DNA from: Sphingomonadaceae bacterium
GTDB lineage: Bacteria > Pseudomonadota > Alphaproteobacteria > Sphingomonadales > Sphingomonadaceae
Assembly (NCBI GenBank): GCA_014380205.1
Contig: JACMKH010000004.1
Coordinates: forward strand, 1-17,538
DNA: 17,538 bases
Direction: 5' to 3'
Both the position numbers and the translations under genes were made by a program. Position 1 is the stretch's first letter. Each line of letters begins with the position of its first letter. This document shows positions 1,002 to 8,876 of the stretch, one piece after another. The notes under the pieces are model-generated. The model was given only the letters and a program-made list of their open reading frames with translations, ran no database searches and was not told where the DNA came from.

Positions 1002-3017
1002 ATGCCCTCCGTGAAAGTCGACGGGATCGAGATCGAGGTTCCCGCGGGCGCGACCGTGCTCCAGGCTTGCGAGCTCGCGGGGCGCGAGATTCCGCGTTTC
1101 TGCTATCACGAGCGGCTGTCGATCGCGGGCAATTGCCGGATGTGCCTCGTCGAGGTCAAGCCCGGGCCGCCCAAGCCGCAGGCGAGCTGCGCGCTCCCCG
1201 CCGCCGACGGGCAGGAGATTTTCACGACCACCGAGATGGTCAAGCGCGCGCGCGAGGGCGTGATGGAGTTCCTGCTGATCAACCACCCGCTCGATTGCCC
1301 GATCTGCGATCAGGGCGGCGAATGCGACCTCCAGGACCAGTCGATCGCCTTCGGCAAGGGCCACACGCGCTACGAGCTCAACAAGCGCGCGGTCGCCGAG
1401 AAATACATGGGCCCGATCGTCAAGACGGTGATGACGCGCTGCATCCATTGCACGCGCTGCATCCGCTTCGCGCAGGAGGTCGCCGGGGTCGAGGAGATCG
1501 GCGCGATCGGGCGCGGCGAGGGAATGGAGATCACTTCCTATCTCGAGAAGGCGGTGTCGAGCGAGCTTTCGGGCAATGTCGTCGATCTGTGCCCGGTCGG
1601 CGCGCTGACTTCGAAGCCCTATGCGTTCGAGGCGCGGCCGTGGGAGTTGAGGAAGACCCCCTCGATCGACGTGATGGACGCGGTCGGGACCAACATCCGC
1701 CTCGACAGCCGCGGTCGCCAGGTGCTCCGCGCGCTCCCCCGGATCAACGAGGATGTCAACGAGGAATGGGCCTCGGACAGGACGCGCCACGCGGTCGACG
1801 GGCTGGTGGTCAACCGGCTCGACCGGCCCTGGGTGCGCCGCGAGGGGCGGCTCGTTCCCGCGCGTTGGGACGAGGCGTTCGCGGCGGTAGAGGCGGCGGC
1901 GCGCGAGGCGGGATCGAGCGTGGCGGCGATCCACGGGGAACTGGTCGAGGTCGAGGCGCTGTATGCCGCGCAGAAGCTGCTCGAATTGCTCGGCTCGACG
2001 ATGCTCGAAGGCCGTCAGACGGGCCTCGCCTATGACGCGACGAGCCTCGCGGCGGTCAACTTCAACACGGGCATAGCGGGGATAGAGCACGCCGACGCGA
2101 TCCTGCTCGTTGGGACCAACCCTCGCTGGGAGGCGCCGCTGGTCAACACGCGGTTGCGCAAGGCGGTCAAGCGCGGCGCGAAGGTCTTCGCAATCGGGCC
2201 CGAGGTCGATCTGACATACAAGGTCGAATGGCTGGGCAACGATGCGTCGCTCCTGGCGAAGCTCCCCAAGGCGGTAACCGAGGCCTTCGGCGCGGCCGAG
2301 CGGCCCGCGATCATCGTCGGCGGCGGCGCGCTCAAGCCCGATGGCGTCCAGGCCGCGAGCCTTGCGCTGGTCGAGAGCCTCGGGCTCATCCGCGAAGGCT
2401 GGAACGGCTACAATGTCCTCCACTTCTCGGCGTCGCGGATGGGCGGGCTGATACTCGGCTGGGCGCGGCCCGGCGGGATCGCGGATGTGATCGCCGCCAA
2501 GCCGAAGCTGGTCTTGCTGCTCGGCGCCGACGAGATCGACTTCACCGCGTTCGAGGGCGCATTCAAGGTCTACATCGGCCATCATGGCGAGGCGGGCGCG
2601 GCGCATGCCGATATCATCCTCCCCGGCGCGGCCTATACCGAGAAGAGTGGAACCTGGGTCAATCTCGAGGGCCGCGTCCAGCGCGGCGAGCGCGCGGTCT
2701 TCCCGCCCGGCGACGCGCGCGAGGACTGGACGATTCTCCGCGCGCTCTCGGGCGCGCTCGGCAAGCCGCTGCCCTTCGACGATCTGGGCCAGCTCCGCGC
2801 CGCGATGGGCCGCGATTTCCCCCAGCTGGCGGAGGAGGGCAGGGCGTCCTTCCCCTGGTCCCCGCCGAGCCTTCCCGCCGGCAAGCCCAAGGGCGAGATC
2901 GCCTATCCAATTCGTGACTTCTACCTCACCAACGCGATCTGCCGCGCGAGCGAGACGATGCGCAGATGCTCGGCCGAGATCCTCCACGGCGTCGAATATG
3001 CGGAGGCGGCGGAATGA
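1002..3017 (+). CDS. nuoG: NADH-quinone oxidoreductase subunit G (Complex I, 75 kDa homologue)
   Basis: A 671-residue iron-sulfur subunit of the peripheral arm of Complex I, passing electrons from the NuoEF flavin module toward quinone. The ferredoxin-like N-terminus has the 2Fe-2S ligands C34, C45, C48 and C63. The next cluster has H95, C99, C102 and C108 (NHPLDCPICDQGGEC). A 4Fe-4S set follows at C147, C150, C153 and C197 (CIHCTRC, DLCPVGAL). The rest is the molybdopterin-oxidoreductase-like fold without an evident cofactor site. The extra CxxCxxxC cluster of Escherichia coli NuoG is not seen, as expected for the short alphaproteobacterial form. A GGAAG Shine-Dalgarno at 988-992 sits 9 nt before the ATG. 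Upstream lie the two-cysteine genes rather than nuoF. Downstream is a 292-bp repeat-filled spacer, then nuoH. Confidence 0.97.
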   Translation: MPSVKVDGIEIEVPAGATVLQACELAGREIPRFCYHERLSIAGNCRMCLVEVKPGPPKPQASCALPAADGQEIFTTTEMVKRAREGVMEFLLINHPLDCPICDQGGECDLQDQSIAFGKGHTRYELNKRAVAEKYMGPIVKTVMTRCIHCTRCIRFAQEVAGVEEIGAIGRGEGMEITSYLEKAVSSELSGNVVDLCPVGALTSKPYAFEARPWELRKTPSIDVMDAVGTNIRLDSRGRQVLRALPRINEDVNEEWASDRTRHAVDGLVVNRLDRPWVRREGRLVPARWDEAFAAVEAAAREAGSSVAAIHGELVEVEALYAAQKLLELLGSTMLEGRQTGLAYDATSLAAVNFNTGIAGIEHADAILLVGTNPRWEAPLVNTRLRKAVKRGAKVFAIGPEVDLTYKVEWLGNDASLLAKLPKAVTEAFGAAERPAIIVGGGALKPDGVQAASLALVESLGLIREGWNGYNVLHFSASRMGGLILGWARPGGIADVIAAKPKLVLLLGADEIDFTAFEGAFKVYIGHHGEAGAAHADIILPGAAYTEKSGTWVNLEGRVQRGERAVFPPGDAREDWTILRALSGALGKPLPFDDLGQLRAAMGRDFPQLAEEGRASFPWSPPSLPAGKPKGEIAYPIRDFYLTNAICRASETMRRCSAEILHGVEYAEAAE

Positions 3018-3027
3018 GCGGCATTGA

Positions 3028-3306
3028 AATCCTCCCCGGAACGGGGAGAGCACAGGGTTTGACTGCCCCCGGCAGTCCAAGATCGTGCCGGGGGCACGAT
3101 CGACCCTATGCTCAGCCCGCAGGGCTGACGGAGGGGGCCCACGTCTCGCGTTGCGCTGCATTGGCCAGGAATCGCCCAGCCGAGAGCCCCCTCCACCACG
3201 CCGGACTTCGTCCGTCGAGAGTCGGGTTGGACTGCCCCCGGCAGTCCAAGCTCGTGCCGGGGGCACGAGCGACCCAACTCTCCCCCTCCCCGTTCCGGGG
3301 AGGACC
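3028..3306. repeat. Family A palindromic mosaic element in the nuoG-nuoH spacer
   Basis: Almost the whole spacer is one element bounded by inverted arms: ATCCTCCCCGGAACGGGGAG on the left and CTCCCCGTTCCGGGGAGGA on the right. Inside are two direct copies of a double hairpin. Copy 1 has GACTGCC/GGCAGTC (3061-3077) and GATCGTGCC/GGCACGATC (3081-3101). Copy 2 has TTGGACTGCC/GGCAGTCCAA (3227-3249) and GCTCGTGCC/GGCACGAGC (3250-3270). A CAGCCC/GGGCTG hairpin and a GGAC-TTC-GTCC hairpin lie between them. No T-run follows any stem, so these are not typical rho-independent terminators. The right arm ends 6 nt before the nuoH start and supplies its GGGGAGG. Confidence 0.85.
3297..3303 (+). promoter_or_regulatory. 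nuoH ribosome binding site within a repeat arm
   Basis: GGGGAGG lies 6 nt before the ATG at 3310 and is part of the right inverted arm of the spacer element. It decides the start of nuoH at 3310. It can pair with the CCTCCCC of the left arm or with the CTCCCC just upstream of it, so the site could be hidden in mRNA structure. Confidence 0.7.
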
Positions 3307-3309
3307 TCA

Positions 3310-4359
3310 ATGACCGCCTGGTTCCAGAGCACCTGGCTCGGCTACGGCTTCGGCTGGTTCGTCTCGACGCTCATCCTCATCCTCATCATTGCGCTCCCGC
3401 TGATGCTCGCGGTCGCGATGATCATCTATGCGGACCGCAAGATCTGGGCCGCGATCGCGCTCAGGCGCGGGCCCAATGTAGTTGGGCCCTGGGGCTTGCT
3501 CCAGAGCTTCGCCGACGGGCTCAAGGTCTTCCTCCAGGAAACCATCATCCCGACCTCGGCCAATCGCGGCCTCTTCCTGATCGCGCCGATCGTGACCTTC
3601 ACGGTCGCGCTGATCGCCTGGGCGGTGATCCCGTTCGGCGAGGAGATGGTGCTCGCCAACATCAATGTCGGGCTGCTCTACATCCTCGCCGCCTCCTCGC
3701 TCGGCGTCTACGGCATCATCATCGCGGGCTGGGCGTCCAATTCGAAATACCCGTTCTTCAGCGCGTTGCGCGCCGCCGCTCAGATGGTTTCGTACGAGGT
3801 CGCGATCGGCTTCGTGCTGCTCTCGGTGGTGATGTTCGCGGGCTCGTTCAACCTTCAGGCGATCATCGAGGGTCAGCGCGGGCTCGTCCTCGGTGTGCTC
3901 AACGGCTACGGCTTCTCGCCGCTGCTCTTCCCGATGGCGGTGGTCTTCCTGATCTCGGCGATGGCCGAGACCGCGCGCACGCCGTTCGACCTCACCGAGG
4001 CCGAGTCCGAGCTCGTCGCGGGCTATCAGACCGAATATTCTTCGATGGCCTTCGCGCTGTTCTGGCTCGGCGAATACGCCAACGTCATCCTGATGTGCGC
4101 GCTCAACGCGCTGCTGTTCTGGGGCGGCTGGCTCCCCCCGATCGACTGGGCGCCGCTCTACGCGGTGCCGGGGATCATCTGGTTCCTGATCAAGATCTGG
4201 TGCTTCTTCTTCATCTTCTCCTGGGTCAAGGCGACCGTCCCGCGCTACCGCTACGACCAGCTCATGCGGCTGGGGTGGAAGATATTCCTGCCGCTGTCGC
4301 TGATCTGGGTGTTCCTGGTGAGCGGGTATCTGATGCTGACTCGTTATGGTGCTCTGTGA
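3310..4359 (+). CDS. nuoH: NADH-quinone oxidoreductase subunit H (membrane, quinone site)
   Basis: A 349-residue integral membrane subunit that joins the peripheral and membrane arms of Complex I and lines the quinone channel. The family signatures are clear: [20 protein letters not shown] in the first cytoplasmic loop, the acidic [16 protein letters not shown] loop, and a C-terminal [14 protein letters not shown] segment. About eight hydrophobic helices are visible, the first at about residues 15-40. Length matches the family. An upstream in-frame extension to 3085 was rejected because it would translate the repeat element; the start at 3310 has a good Shine-Dalgarno. The TGA shares its last A with the ATG of the next small ORF (TGATG at 4357-4361). 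It is unusual that nuoI does not follow directly. Confidence 0.97.
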
Positions 4360-4835
4360 TGGTCAGCCTGCTGCTTCCCTTGGGCCTGACTGCGGCAGCC
4401 GTATTACAGCACGTGACGCCCGCAAATCCGCATGGCAACTTGGACCAAGGCTCTGTCCTCGCACTCGTTTGCTCGTTGCGCACTCATCAAGATACAAGGG
4501 TGACTTTGCGCTTCGCCAATTTGAATCCAACTCCGCATTCATGGCAGAATAGTGATAATAGAGATAGAGGAAATGTGATAGTCCTCACCGATAATCATGA
4601 ATATCTAGACGGCGGGGCCGAACTAAGAAATATCGAATACGATCGTAGCGTAATACGACGAGCCATGATCAAAATAGTCCGCCGAACGACTATTGCATTT
4701 CATGTAATTCAATTAGAAATGGTGGCGCGAGATGACGATGGTGAGTTTGACTTAGAGCTTATAGAGCTTGGCCTTCATGGCGAGCGCAACTTGCAGGGTA
4801 GCGGCAGTTGCAGATCTGAGGATCCCCAGGCATGA
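4359..4835 (+). CDS. Orphan small protein inserted between nuoH and nuoI
   Basis: A 158-residue protein I do not recognise. The start is set by the TGATG junction with nuoH. The N-terminus ([16 protein letters not shown]) could be a short signal peptide, cleavage unclear. The rest is polar and looks beta-rich, with an Asn/Asp/His-rich middle (about 50-75) and an acidic [20 protein letters not shown] segment (about 124-143). A single cysteine near residue 36 and one near the end could pair. The last codons overlap the nuoI start as ATGA (4832-4835), so it is coupled on both sides. By direct count, 4561-4740 has 78 G+C in 180 bases (43%), far below the neighbours. That points to recent acquisition or relaxed selection. 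It is not a known Complex I subunit. That it is translated is inferred from the two exact overlaps. Confidence 0.6.
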
Positions 4836-5317
4836 CCCTCGCGCACCTCATAAAATCCTTCACCCTCTGGGAGTTCGTCAAGGCGCACCTCCTCACGCTA
4901 CGCTATTTCTTCAAGCGCAAGGCGACGATCAACTATCCCTTCGAAAAAAACCCGCTCTCGCCGCGCTTTCGCGGCGAGCATGCGCTGCGCCGCTATCCCA
5001 ACGGCGAGGAGCGGTGCATCGCGTGCAAGCTGTGCGAGGCCATATGCCCCGCGCTCGCGATCACAATCGAGGCCGAGCCGCGCGAGGACGGCAGCCGCCG
5101 CACCACGCGCTACGACATCGACATGACCAAATGCATCTATTGCGGCCTTTGCCAGGAGGCGTGCCCGGTCGACGCGATCGTCGAGGGGCCTAATTTCGAA
5201 TTCGCAACCGAGACGCGCGAGGAGCTGATCTACGACAAGGCCAAGCTGCTCGCCAACGGTGACCGCTGGGAACGCGCGCTCGCGGCGAATCTTGCCGCCG
5301 ATGCGCCGTATCGGTAG
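4832..5317 (+). CDS. nuoI: NADH-quinone oxidoreductase subunit I (8Fe ferredoxin)
   Basis: A 161-residue subunit of the connecting region of Complex I, holding the two 4Fe-4S clusters (N6a and N6b) that lead electrons to the last cluster before quinone. Two full ferredoxin motifs are visible: C62, C65, C68, C72 ([12 protein letters not shown]) and C101, C104, C107, C111 ([12 protein letters not shown]). The N-terminus has the amphipathic membrane-contact segment seen in the family (LKYFF-like [14 protein letters not shown], about 23-36). Length is normal. The start at 4832 overlaps the stop of the orphan ORF, with only a weak CAGG upstream, so its translation may depend on ribosomes finishing that ORF. 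A 248-bp repeat-filled spacer follows. Confidence 0.97.
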
Positions 5318-5344
5318 GCGGCGGCGATGAGGGACTTGGCGATT

Positions 5345-5560
5345 GAGATCCTCCCCGCGCCGCAGGCGAGGGGAGGGGGACCAAGCGAAGCTTGGTGGAT
5401 GGGCCGCCGCGTCAGCGGCGGTCTGCGACCGCCGACCCCTCCACCACTCGCCTTCGGCGAGCGTTCGAGCGAGATCGTGTTCCCCGGATACGATCTTGGC
5501 CTGCCGGGGGCAGGCCAAAGCTCGAACGCCCCCTCCCCGAGAGAAGCTCGGGGAGGATTT
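5345..5560. repeat. Family A palindromic mosaic element in the nuoI-nuoJ spacer
   Basis: The left arm starts ATCCTCCCCGCGCC and continues to GGGGAGGGGGACC; the right arm is CCCCCTCCCCGAG-AGAAG-CTCGGGGAGG. Inside is a string of short hairpins: CCAAGC-GAA-GCTTGG (5381-5395), CCGCCGC-GTCA-GCGGCGG, GGCGGTC-TGC-GACCGCC, CTCGCC-TTC-GGCGAG, GATCGT/ACGATC (5473-5495) and TTGGCCTGCC/GGCAGGCCAA (5496-5518). The last two, read on the minus strand, match the double hairpin of the nuoG-nuoH element with paired base changes. No T-tracts suggest termination. Confidence 0.85.
5550..5556 (+). promoter_or_regulatory. nuoJ ribosome binding site within a repeat arm
   Basis: GGGGAGG, 9 nt before the ATG at 5566, is the 3' strand of the CTCCCCGAG/CTCGGGGAG terminal hairpin of the spacer element. 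It fixes the nuoJ start at 5566 against in-frame upstream alternatives that would read through the repeat. Confidence 0.7.
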
Positions 5561-5565
5561 CCAGC

Positions 5566-6177
5566 ATGATCCAGACCCTCGCCTTCTACCTCTTCGCCAG
5601 CCTCGTCATCGCCTCGGGCGCGATGACGATCCTTTCGCGCAACCCCGTCCATTCCGTCCTCTGGCTGATCCTCGCCTTCTTCAACGCCGCCGGCCTCATG
5701 CTGCTCGTCGGAGCCGAGTTCATCGCGCTGCTGCTCGTCATTGTCTATGTCGGCGCGGTCGCGGTGCTCTTCCTGTTCGTCGTGATGATGCTCGACATCG
5801 ATTTCGCGGCGCTGCGCGCGGGCTTCACGCGCTATCTGCCGTTCGGGCTGCTCGTCGCGCTCGTCCTGCTCGCCGAGATGATCCTCGCGGTCGGCGTGTG
5901 GAATCTGGGCGGGATCGAGGCCGACGCGCGCATGGCGAGCATCGACCCCAATATCCCCAACATCGAATCGGTCGGCCGCGCGCTCTACGGCCGCTATCTG
6001 CTGCTGTTCGAGGGCGCGGGGCTGATCCTGCTCGTCGCGATGATCGGCGCGATCGTCCTCACCCACCGCGAGCGTAAGGGCTCCAAGGCGCAGAACGTCG
6101 ACCGCCAGAACCGGCGGCGACCGCAGGATGCGACGCGTAACATGCGGCCCGAGGTAGGGCAGGGGGTGGAGCTGTGA
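5566..6177 (+). CDS. nuoJ: NADH-quinone oxidoreductase subunit J (membrane)
   Basis: A 203-residue membrane subunit of the proton-pumping arm, packed near the quinone end with NuoH and NuoK. Five hydrophobic segments are visible, the first at about residues 5-22. The family core [18 protein letters not shown] (26-43) and [27 protein letters not shown] are present, including the break in the third helix (VYVGAVAVL) where a pi-bulge is known in the family. The C-terminus is a basic, soluble tail ([18 protein letters not shown]) ending GQGVEL, as often in alphaproteobacteria. The start at 5566 follows the repeat-borne Shine-Dalgarno; extending it upstream to 5392 would translate the repeat. Next is a 166-bp repeat spacer, then nuoK. 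Confidence 0.96.
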
Positions 6178-6186
6178 GGGGCAACA

Positions 6187-6339
6187 AAATCCTATCCGCG
6201 CCGAAGGCGGGGGGAGGGGGACCGCTCGCCGCAGGCGAGTGGTGGAGGGGTCGGCGGTCGGAGACCGCCGGCTTCGCCGGCGACCCCTTCACCATGCTTC
6301 GCATGGTCCCCCTCCCCACGCTTCGCGTAGGGAGGATTT
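6187..6339. repeat. Family A palindromic mosaic element in the nuoJ-nuoK spacer
   Basis: It starts AAATCCTATCCGCGCC and ends TAGGGAGGATTTT, a decayed version of the ATCCTCCCC/GGGGAGGAT arms. The core is a row of short stems with three-base loops: CTCGCC-GCA-GGCGAG, GGCGGTC-GGA-GACCGCC, GCCGGC-TTC-GCCGGC and ACCATGC-TTC-GCATGGT. It shares GGGGAGGGGGACC and the GGCGGTC/GACCGCC stem with the nuoI-nuoJ element, where the loop is TGC instead of GGA. No terminator-like T-run follows any stem. Confidence 0.8.
6330..6335 (+). promoter_or_regulatory. nuoK ribosome binding site within a repeat arm
   Basis: GGGAGG, 8 nt before the ATG at 6344, is the end of the right arm of the spacer element. It fixes the nuoK start at 6344. 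Confidence 0.65.
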
Positions 6340-6343
6340 TCGC

Positions 6344-6649
6344 ATGATCTCCCTCGGCCACTACCTCGTCGTCGCCGCGATCCTGTTCGTGATGGGCGTG
6401 CTCGGCATTTTCCTCAACCGCAAGAACGTCATCATCATCCTGATGGCGATCGAGCTCATCCTGCTCGCGGTGAACATCAACCTCGTCGCGTTCAGCGCGT
6501 ATCTGGGCGACATCGTCGGCCAGGTGTTCGCGATGTTCGTGCTGACGGTGGCTGCGGGCGAGGCGGCGATCGGCCTCGCGATCCTCGTGATCTATTTCCG
6601 CGCGCGCGGGACGATCGCGGTGGACGATGTAAACAGGATGAAGGGGTGA
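6344..6649 (+). CDS. nuoK: NADH-quinone oxidoreductase subunit K (membrane)
   Basis: A 101-residue, three-helix membrane subunit (MrpC-like) of the proton-pumping arm. The two buried glutamates needed for proton transfer in the family are present: E37 ([17 protein letters not shown]) and E73 ([14 protein letters not shown]). The cytoplasmic turn GIFLNRKN (21-28) and the C-terminal DDVNRMKG are typical. Length equals the family norm. The start at 6344 has the repeat-borne GGGAGG and gives the usual [10 protein letters not shown] opening; the longer in-frame reading from 6239 would translate the repeat. A 175-bp spacer with a second repeat type separates it from nuoL. Confidence 0.97.
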
Positions 6650-6668
6650 TGGGGGTGGCCGCAGCGCT

Positions 6669-6820
6669 TTCCCCCTCCCTTTCAAGGGAGGGGCTAGGGG
6701 TGGGTGCGCGCGTCTGCGCGCCAAAAGACTCCTGTCTGTCCCGGGCCGCAAAGAGCTTCGGGGGCATCGACCCCCCTCACCTCTCTCCCACCCCTAACCC
6801 CTCCCGCAAGCGGGAGGGGA
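6669..6820. repeat. Family B inverted repeat in the nuoK-nuoL spacer
   Basis: The two ends are inverted copies of one hairpin-plus-tail module. The left end is CCCTCCCTT-TC-AAGGGAGGG followed by GCTAGGGGTGGG. The right end is CCCACCCCTAA followed by CCCCTCCCGC-AA-GCGGGAGGGG. The hairpin tips differ between the ends (CTTTCAAG against CGCAAGCG) but keep pairing. The centre holds a GCGCGC-GTCT-GCGCGC hairpin and unremarkable sequence. The right arm gives the Shine-Dalgarno of nuoL. It differs from family A, which has ATCCTCCCC arms. Confidence 0.8.
6812..6819 (+). promoter_or_regulatory. nuoL ribosome binding site within a repeat arm
   Basis: GGGAGGGG, with its core GGAGG 7 nt before the GTG at 6825, is the 3' strand of the CCCCTCCCGC/GCGGGAGGGG hairpin. 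It supports GTG at 6825 as the nuoL start. Confidence 0.65.
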
Positions 6821-6824
6821 ACCC

Positions 6825-8876
6825 GTGACCGCCATCCACCTTATCGTCTTCCTCCCGCTGCTTGCCGCGATCGTCGCGGGCTTCGGCAACCGAATGCTGG
6901 GCAACTTCGCCGCCAAGCTGATCACCACTGGCGCGCTGTTTATCGGCATGGCGCTCTCCTGGCCGATCTTCCTCGCGTTCCTCGCGGGAGGGCAGGAGGC
7001 GTACGTCGTCCCCGTGTTCGACTGGATCCGCTCGGGCGACATGCAGGTCGCGTGGAGCCTCCGCGTCGACGCGCTCACCGCGGTGATGCTCGTCGTCGTC
7101 ACCACCGTCTCGGCATTCGTCCATCTATACAGCTGGGGCTATATGGCCGAGGACGACAGCCAGCCGCGCTTCTTCGCCTATCTCAGCCTGTTCACCTTCG
7201 CGATGCTGATGCTCGTCACCGCCGACAATCTCGTCCAGATGTTTTTCGGCTGGGAGGGCGTCGGCCTCGCCTCCTACCTCCTGATCGGCTTCTGGTACCA
7301 CAAGCCCTCGGCCAACGCGGCCGCGATCAAGGCCTTCGTGGTCAACCGCGTCGGCGATTTCGGGTTCTCGCTCGGCATCTTCGGGACCTTCCTCGTGTTC
7401 GGGACGATCTCGATCCCCGCGATCCTCGAGGCATCGCCCGCGATGGCGGGATCGTCGATCGGCTTCCTCGGCATGCGCGTCGACACGATGACGCTGCTCT
7501 GCATCCTCCTCTTCATCGGCGCAATGGGGAAATCGGCGCAGCTCGGCCTCCACACCTGGCTACCCGACGCGATGGAGGGCCCGACCCCGGTCTCGGCGCT
7601 GATCCACGCCGCGACGATGGTCACCGCCGGCGTGTTCATGGTCTGCCGCCTGTCGCCGATGTTCGAGACCAGCGAGGCCGCGCTCGTCGTAGTCGCGTTC
7701 ATCGGCGCGGCGACCGCGCTGTTCGCCGCGACCGTCGGCACCTGCCAGAACGACATCAAGCGCGTGATCGCCTATTCGACGTGCTCGCAGCTCGGCTACA
7801 TGTTCTTCGCCGCTGGCGTCGGCGCCTACGGCGCGGCGATGTTCCACCTCTTCACCCACGCCTTCTTCAAGGCGCTGCTGTTCTTGGGAGCGGGCAGCGT
7901 GATCCACGCGATGCACCATGAGCAGGACATGCGCTTCTACGGCGGCTTGCGAAAACACATCCCGCTGACCTTCTGGGCGATGATGGCGGGGACGCTCGCG
8001 ATCACCGGCGTCGGCCTGATCGGCGTATTCGGCTTCGCGGGCTTCTATTCGAAGGACGCGATCATCGAGGCGGCATTCGCGAGCGACAGCCCGATGGGCG
8101 GGATCGCCTTTTTCGTCGCCGTGTTCGCCGCTCTGCTGACGAGCTTCTATTCGTGGCGGCTGATGTTCCTGACCTTCTGGGGGAGCCCGCGCTGGGCGGG
8201 ATCGACACACATCCAGCACGCCGCGCACAGCCACGATCATCCCGCCGAGGAAGATGCGGGACAGGATCCCTCGATGCATGATGCGGGACCAAAAGAGGTC
8301 GCGCACGGAACCGCCGGCTATCACCCGCACGAAAGCCCGCTCTCCATCCTCGTGCCGCTGGTCGTGCTCGCGGGCGGCGCGATCCTCGCGGGCTTCCTCT
8401 TCCACGGCGCGTTCCTCGAGGCCGAGGAGGGCGCGCATTTCTGGGCGGGCAGCATCGCCTTCGACACGCACCTGATGCACGCGATGCACGAGGTCCCGCT
8501 GTGGGTGAAGCTCTCGGCGACCGCCGCGATGCTGCTGGGCCTCGCGACCGCCTTCCTCGCCTATATCCGCTACAAGGATTGGCCCGCGCGCTTCACCCAG
8601 ACCTTTCGCGGCCTCTACGCCTTTCTGCTCAACAAATGGTATTTCGACGAGCTCTTCCACATCCTGTTCGTCCTCCCCTCCTTCGCGATCGGACGCCTGT
8701 TCTGGAAGCGCGGCGACGAGGGGACAATCGACCGCTTCGGCCCCGACGGCGTCGCCGCGGTCGTCGCCTCGGGGAGCACCCTCGCGCGCCGCCTCCAGTC
8801 GGGCTATCTTTACACCTATGCGCTGGTGATGCTGCTCGGCCTGGCCGCCGCCGCGACCTGGGCGATGGCGCGCTAG
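6825..8876 (+). CDS. nuoL: NADH-quinone oxidoreductase subunit L (antiporter-like, with lateral helix)
   Basis: A 683-residue antiporter-like subunit at the far end of the membrane arm, one of three proton channels of Complex I. It starts with GTG. Key residues of the channel are present: E144 in [16 protein letters not shown] and K236 in [19 protein letters not shown], followed by the family signature [21 protein letters not shown] soluble His-rich loop (about residues 460-505) precedes the C-terminal helices; such loops are common in alphaproteobacterial NuoL. The C-terminal part contains the long lateral helix region and the final transmembrane anchor. Length is normal. The TAG is directly followed by the ATG of nuoM with no gap. 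Confidence 0.97.

Follow-up and report, generated by a model that had tools for sequence, protein, structure and literature searches.

In the window (the whole stretch of 17,538 nucleotides of sphingomonad DNA analysed here), an open reading frame of 158 codons, P0001, is wedged between nuoH and nuoI and overlaps both of these Complex I genes. Similar fast-changing genes are found at the same place in relatives, and hint at an unrecognised partner of Complex I. The explanation that we favour, while holding it at somewhat below an even chance, is that P0001 is a genuine gene for a small, apparently exported protein, translationally coupled to its neighbours, that it is one of a fast-evolving two-cysteine class recurring between nuoH and nuoI, and that it serves Complex I in an accessory or assembly role. 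The sequence-only reading had proposed either an accessory factor or a passenger, and these have turned out to be the right pair of alternatives: recurrence in the slot, a shared protein plan and selection argue for a role, while bridging of other nuo junctions and a second orphan frame, P0002, argue for a passenger. Indeed, for an exported slot protein made together with Complex I, we regard an accessory role and mere tolerated passage as about equally probable.

Position, composition and predicted product of P0001

All genes discussed here lie on the forward strand. The upstream partner is nuoH (positions 3310-4359; PF00146, E 6.5e-120), which encodes a membrane subunit of Complex I, and the downstream partner is nuoI (4832-5317; Fer4 families), which encodes a 4Fe-4S subunit. 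P0001 occupies positions 4359-4835, as had been described before: its ATG at 4359 uses the A of the nuoH TGA (4357-4359) to form TGATG (4357-4361), with an alternative in-frame GTG start at 4356, and its own TGA (4833-4835) overlaps the nuoI ATG at 4832 in an ATGA (4832-4835). At both ends, P0001 thus has the co-directed overlap of 1 or 4 nt by which stop-start coupled pairs are recognised. In the parts of two studies that deal with overlapping pairs coupled by termination-reinitiation (PMC6728339, PMC10666635), ATGA and TGATG junctions join genes of one heteromeric complex, as is the case here; what differs from those known pairs is that inserted DNA preserves the overlaps by means of a bridging ORF. 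Ribosomes finishing nuoH would reinitiate at the overlapping P0001 start and then continue to nuoI, so that synthesis of the P0001 protein would keep pace with that of Complex I.

The low GC content that first drew attention to this ORF was borne out, with 43.3% measured over positions 4561-4740 (43% had been counted). Over its whole length P0001 has a GC content of 49.8% and a GC3 of 0.49, as compared to 0.84-0.94 in nuoG-nuoM, and segments of 180 nt with at most 45% GC were found in the P0001 stretch only in the whole window. A lowered GC content is common in the nuoH-nuoI slot, but less marked than in P0001: for 13 further slot ORFs, GC3 ranges from 0.53 to 0.82. The low GC3 of P0001 fits a recent arrival. 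That P0001 is a chance ORF, a pseudogene or an artefact of the assembly might be suspected from the draft state of the genome (498 contigs, 87.58% complete, 2.8% contamination) and from the failure to find a homologue, but the overlaps are exact on both sides, GC is higher at first than at second codon positions (GC1 0.61, GC2 0.40), none of 300 shuffled versions of the gap with preserved dinucleotide content gave an ORF bridging the nuoH stop and the nuoI start, and other genomes carry ORFs in the same slot, and we consider this explanation very improbable.

It had also been claimed that nuoI lacks a good Shine-Dalgarno sequence, which proved overstated rather than wrong. Inside P0001, 9 nt before the nuoI ATG, lies a Shine-Dalgarno-like TGAGGA (4817-4822), whose duplex with the anti-Shine-Dalgarno sequence has an energy of -5.6 kcal/mol, as compared to medians of -6.5 in a set of 50 nuoI genes from sphingomonads with junctions under 40 nt and of -2.8 kcal/mol for random positions; the site is to be taken as moderate, since an energy at least this favourable is reached at 21% of 3540 random positions. 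Translation of nuoI may possibly depend on that of P0001, but nuoI does have this moderate site of its own. The start of P0001 has no GGAG core, and its duplex score of -5.1, obtained at the in-frame GTG at 4356, is equalled by 26% of random positions. In addition, a search of positions 3000-6900 of the window against Rfam returned no family at threshold.

P0001 opens with a leader-like hydrophobic N-terminus free of lysine and arginine (residues 1-22, positions 4359-4424; 12-residue hydropathy maximum of 2.16), which we read as a putative signal peptide. The protein has exactly two cysteines, Cys38 (codon at 4470-4472) and Cys151 (codon at 4809-4811), the latter in a GSC context. A single-sequence structural model is strand-rich and places both cysteines in strands, as does a two-sequence model of a protein of the slot family described below; with mean pLDDT values (45.7 and 49.9, respectively) that are too low for a fold search, this placement is no more than a hint. 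Judged from these features, P0001 is probably exported and probably periplasmic. The leader-like start would direct it to the periplasm, where a Cys38-Cys151 disulfide would probably tie the first strand of a small beta domain to the last one, and its most likely job would be to assist Complex I on the periplasmic side, as an accessory protein or in assembly.

The nuoH-nuoI slot in other sphingomonads

Supernumerary subunits in bacteria and coupling by overlap are already known, and so are extra nuo ORFs: unidentified reading frames occur between nuo genes in the operons of Paracoccus and Rhodobacter. To our knowledge, no slot-specific two-cysteine plan has been described for these, and our searches of an open-access library did not bring up any family of apparently exported two-cysteine proteins that is under selection and tied to the nuoH/nuoI junction.

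Among the sphingomonad loci surveyed, which comprise named records and the window (n = 58 for this junction), nuoH and nuoI overlap or are separated by at most 5 nt in 46, with a median gap of -1. Gaps of at least 240 nt occur in eight loci, the window included, and in every one of these the gap is taken up by ORFs overlapping or directly adjoining nuoH on one side and nuoI on the other. Across the seven nuo junctions, gaps of this size were seen at nuoH/nuoI (8/58), nuoG/nuoH (4/60) and nuoI/nuoJ (1/58), and at none of the others. Scattered lineages hold one to three overlapping or abutting ORFs in the slot, among them Sphingomonas caeni LB-2 (with three), Sphingomonas sp. RGIG596, two Porphyrobacter records and three other MAGs. 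Of nine genomes of the same genus besides the window's own, four carry one to three slot ORFs (G001, G006, G007 and G008), and a large insert is absent from five (G002, G003, G004, G005 and G009). Measured from the end of the nuoH match, the gaps of these five are 2-116 nt long, the value of 116 nt, in G003, reflecting a longer nuoH. As the slot is empty in most relatives, the slot protein must be dispensable in the group.

On a nuoH+nuoI tree, the large-insert state appears on 21 of 76 tips and requires 12 Fitch changes, against a mean of 18.7 and a minimum of 14 in 500 label shuffles; the state is clustered on the tree, yet it has undergone many gains or losses. Slot occupancy on this tree is not a rate, because loci were partly chosen for holding the slot family described below, in which the sample is enriched, and because two sequences are present twice (L009/L019 and L023/L110). 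Of the 79 records, L061 and L063, which are without nuoI, and L103, with a partial nuoH, were left off the tree.

Some loci show further peculiarities next to the slot. In G009 (locus L006), the nuoH-nuoI gap is bridged by a micro-ORF of 21 codons, in which a leader-like start is joined to a tail bearing a Shine-Dalgarno site, and which would resemble a deletion derivative of a slot gene. Moreover, the NuoH C-terminus faces the periplasm, a topology on which our literature search returned no statement, and C-terminal extensions of NuoH by 27-45 residues were found at 9 of 77 loci. At five of these loci (L004, L030, L043, L047 and L067), where the slot is empty, the extension is 35-45 residues long and contains exactly two cysteines, and possibly represents a fused slot sequence. 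The draft genome from which the window derives holds a second nuoH-nuoI pair (L012, on contig G000:C405), with a nuoH 70% identical, which is either contamination or a second Complex I.

A shared protein plan and a slot-linked family

Most slot ORFs encode proteins built on one plan, in which a hydrophobic, leader-like start is combined with a pair of cysteines, one near the beginning and one near the end. This plan, which was defined after the slot proteins had been viewed, is present in 12 of the 16 slot ORFs of the first survey, P0001 included. It is missing from G006b, G008c and L054, and, as coded, from L023a, the first S. caeni ORF, which has two early/late cysteine pairs in its 246 residues; L044 has an additional later hydrophobic stretch. 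In 800 kb of two same-genus genomes taken as a control, a single case of the plan was found, both among the 89 small gene calls that have a hydrophobic start and among the 322 calls for which some start yields 120-190 residues. The gene caller used for this control recovers eight of ten slot ORFs (those of L056 and L019 are missed) and allows alternative starts, which favours the control. A first caller gave 0/29 and 0/141 over the same 800 kb, but it recovers just two of eight slot ORFs; with the more sensitive caller the contrast between slot and control is still large.

A profile built from five aligned slot ORFs (those of G001, G006, G007, G008 and S. caeni) defines what we here call family A. 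This profile gave 14 matches in 13 of 397 genomes of the family, distributed over five genera, and every one of them is located in the nuoH-nuoI slot. With a profile of 13 sequences, three matches were obtained in 396 genomes of the order, two in the slot and a weak one (7e-5) outside it in G366. One slot protein, that of G494, is identical to that of the S. caeni record. Linkage of family A to the slot is therefore near-exclusive, with 14 genomes holding it there against one elsewhere. The cysteine rule is followed by 13 of 14 family A sequences, G383 having a third cysteine. Members of the family match nothing in Pfam or NCBIfam better than E 0.04, and the best PDB match of the profile has an E of 0.22.

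In three close family A pairs, dN/dS is 0.05, 0.15 and 0.25, as compared to 0.01-0.10 for nuoH of the same pairs, and dN is about 2-10 times that of nuoH. From these ratios it follows that family A consists of real proteins under purifying selection. Of two further pairs, the proteins of G241 and G193 are identical and give no ratio, and L068/L070, a pair that falls outside family A by plain search, has a dN/dS of 0.53.

P0001 itself has no relative that can be recognised by sequence. Searches of the 60 genomes in the relatives set and of 289 genomes of its class (its own genome counted in each) returned no match but P0001 itself; moreover, it and has no relative in phages, plasmids or IMG/VR and no second copy in its own genome. 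Among 397 genomes of the family, its own included, one further match was obtained (G282, E 0.003, residues 89-151), which is at chance level for that number of genomes and was discarded. Searches against Pfam, PHROGs, NCBIfam, PADLOC and PDB gave nothing above threshold. The Pfam score for DUF6265 (PF19780) is 14.1 bits with an E of 0.064, below the gathering cut-off of 23.8, and the PADLOC models of anti-phage defence returned no match up to E 1. The description of P0001 as an orphan therefore stands by sequence but not by place, as relatives hold ORFs in the same slot; likewise, homologues with a preserved frame, whose absence had been named as evidence against the gene, are missing by sequence and present by position and architecture.

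The relation of P0001 to family A has to be read in the same way. P0001 resembles the family in its slot, overlaps, length, leader-like start and cysteine pair, the late cysteine lying in a GxC near the end as in family A, and differs from it in the absence of significant sequence similarity. Neither family A profile matched the window's own genome; the profile score of P0001 is -1.6 bits, which 317 of 2000 shuffles reached, and a cysteine-anchored global alignment of P0001 to the family gave a z of 1.08, equalled by 8 of 60 shuffles. In the same anchored alignment, L056, L068, L023c and G006b exceed all 60 shuffles (z 2.8-3.9) and L044 exceeds 58 of 60, with L023b and the cytoplasmic-looking L054 being unremarkable. 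Membership of P0001 in family A by sequence thus received no support from profile, shuffles or anchored alignment. On its position and architecture, P0001 is a member of the slot class, and a putative relative of the other slot proteins by descent.

A protein that is small, exported-looking, fast-evolving, low in GC and patchy on the tree could also be a horizontally acquired envelope protein with a task in defence, immunity or stress, for which the operon merely secures steady expression. We hold this to be improbable, as matches to PADLOC, PHROGs, phages and plasmids are lacking, and as family A is almost confined to one slot, unlike a mobile cassette.

Returning to an accessory role in Complex I, a cryo-EM structure of the Paracoccus denitrificans enzyme is reported to contain four supernumerary subunits, NDUFS4, NDUFS6, NDUFA12 and PIMT (PMC11522691). 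P0001 is comparable to these in being a small non-core candidate in an alphaproteobacterium; it differs in that the supernumerary subunits are seen bound in the structure described there, whereas P0001 is a candidate predicted from sequence, with an apparently exported product and a gene placed in the nuoH-nuoI slot. No homology of P0001 to a known supernumerary subunit was detected at the Pfam and NCBIfam cut-offs, nor significantly among PDB sequences. A recurrent slot of overlapping, exported-looking and selected proteins would indicate an unrecognised periplasmic side of Complex I biology. In its widest form, which we consider rather unlikely, the hypothesis would state that scattered sphingomonads possess a fast-evolving periplasmic accessory protein of Complex I with one disulfide, encoded in the nuoH-nuoI slot, sometimes by two or three tandem genes and perhaps, in other species, as a short C-terminal extension of NuoH with a cysteine pair, and that P0001 is such a protein, diverged too far to be recognised by sequence.

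Bridged nuo junctions and a possible passenger origin

The strongest competing account is that P0001 is foreign or rearranged DNA which was kept at a stop-start junction because it happens to be open from stop to start, its protein having no role in Complex I; we judge this quite plausible, if clearly short of an even chance. The account draws on the frequency with which gaps of at least 45 nt are bridged by one ORF. At nuoG/nuoH this is the case for 14 of 14 gaps, with 4.1 expected from shuffles, and at nuoH/nuoI for 10 of 12, with 2.05 expected, the other two being spanned by chains of two and three ORFs, as against 7 of 26 (4.7 expected) at nuoI/nuoJ, a junction that does not overlap by default. 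The remaining junctions are less clear (nuoJ/nuoK 3/3, with 1.7 expected; nuoK/nuoL 3/6, with 2.1; nuoL/nuoM 1/3, with 0.5), and in all of these counts short gaps frequently bridge by chance. Termination-reinitiation is reported to be nearly abolished by a gap of about 20 nt (PMC10666635). Together with this effect, the bridging pattern makes it explicable by retained coupling alone that inserts at nuoG/nuoH and nuoH/nuoI are ORFs.

Several of the nuoG/nuoH bridges read as repeat-like DNA and others as short membrane proteins, and the window provides examples of its own. Its nuoG/nuoH insert (3014-3313) is repeat-bearing, GC-rich DNA with a frame of 99 codons running from ATGA to ATGA, and is probably a bridge without protein function. 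GC-rich repeat DNA also makes up the nuoJ/nuoK insert (6174-6347), with a bridging frame of 57 codons (GTGA to ATGA), and the GC-rich nuoK/nuoL insert (6649-6828) has one of 59 codons; 54% and 49% of shuffles of these two, respectively, bridge as well. Both the nuoG/nuoH and the nuoJ/nuoK insert contain repeats present elsewhere in the window. As even repeat DNA forms bridging ORFs, passenger capture is a serious rival.

Further in its favour is P0002 (11860-12354), a second secreted-looking orphan ORF of 164 residues, which starts at the nuoN stop and precedes a birA-like gene. A relative 54% identical is located elsewhere in the same-genus genome G007, about 237 kb from nuoH; at E 0.001, 6 of the 59 other genomes in the relatives set have a match, which is weak in two cases, that of G007 being the one placed with respect to nuo. 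P0002 therefore looks like a captured passenger, and the low GC3 of P0001 and its lack of a homologue would agree with a similar origin. Nevertheless, passage alone cannot account for a leader and a cysteine pair in most nuoH/nuoI ORFs when 0 of 14 nuoG/nuoH ORFs have the plan (three have the cysteine spacing, none of these with a hydrophobic start), nor can it account for the purifying selection and near-exclusive slot linkage of family A. Moreover, nuoI owns its moderate Shine-Dalgarno-like site. Whatever the role of P0001, the bridging pattern suggests a rule of operon evolution, by which an insert at a coupled junction survives if it is itself a bridging frame; such a rule, if true, would make these junctions a cradle for new genes.

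Some minor observations were made on the remainder of the window. The repeat element between nuoI and nuoJ (5318-5565) has 16 further matches (E 1e-5) in its own genome, two of them within the window. P0002, for which Pfam gave no match above cut-off, contains a CQPHYC resembling the CKPHDC motif of Ivy lysozyme inhibitors. Finally, upstream of nuoG, a frame of 239 codons without a Pfam match (264-980) begins with a leader-like start and has a GC3 of 0.67.
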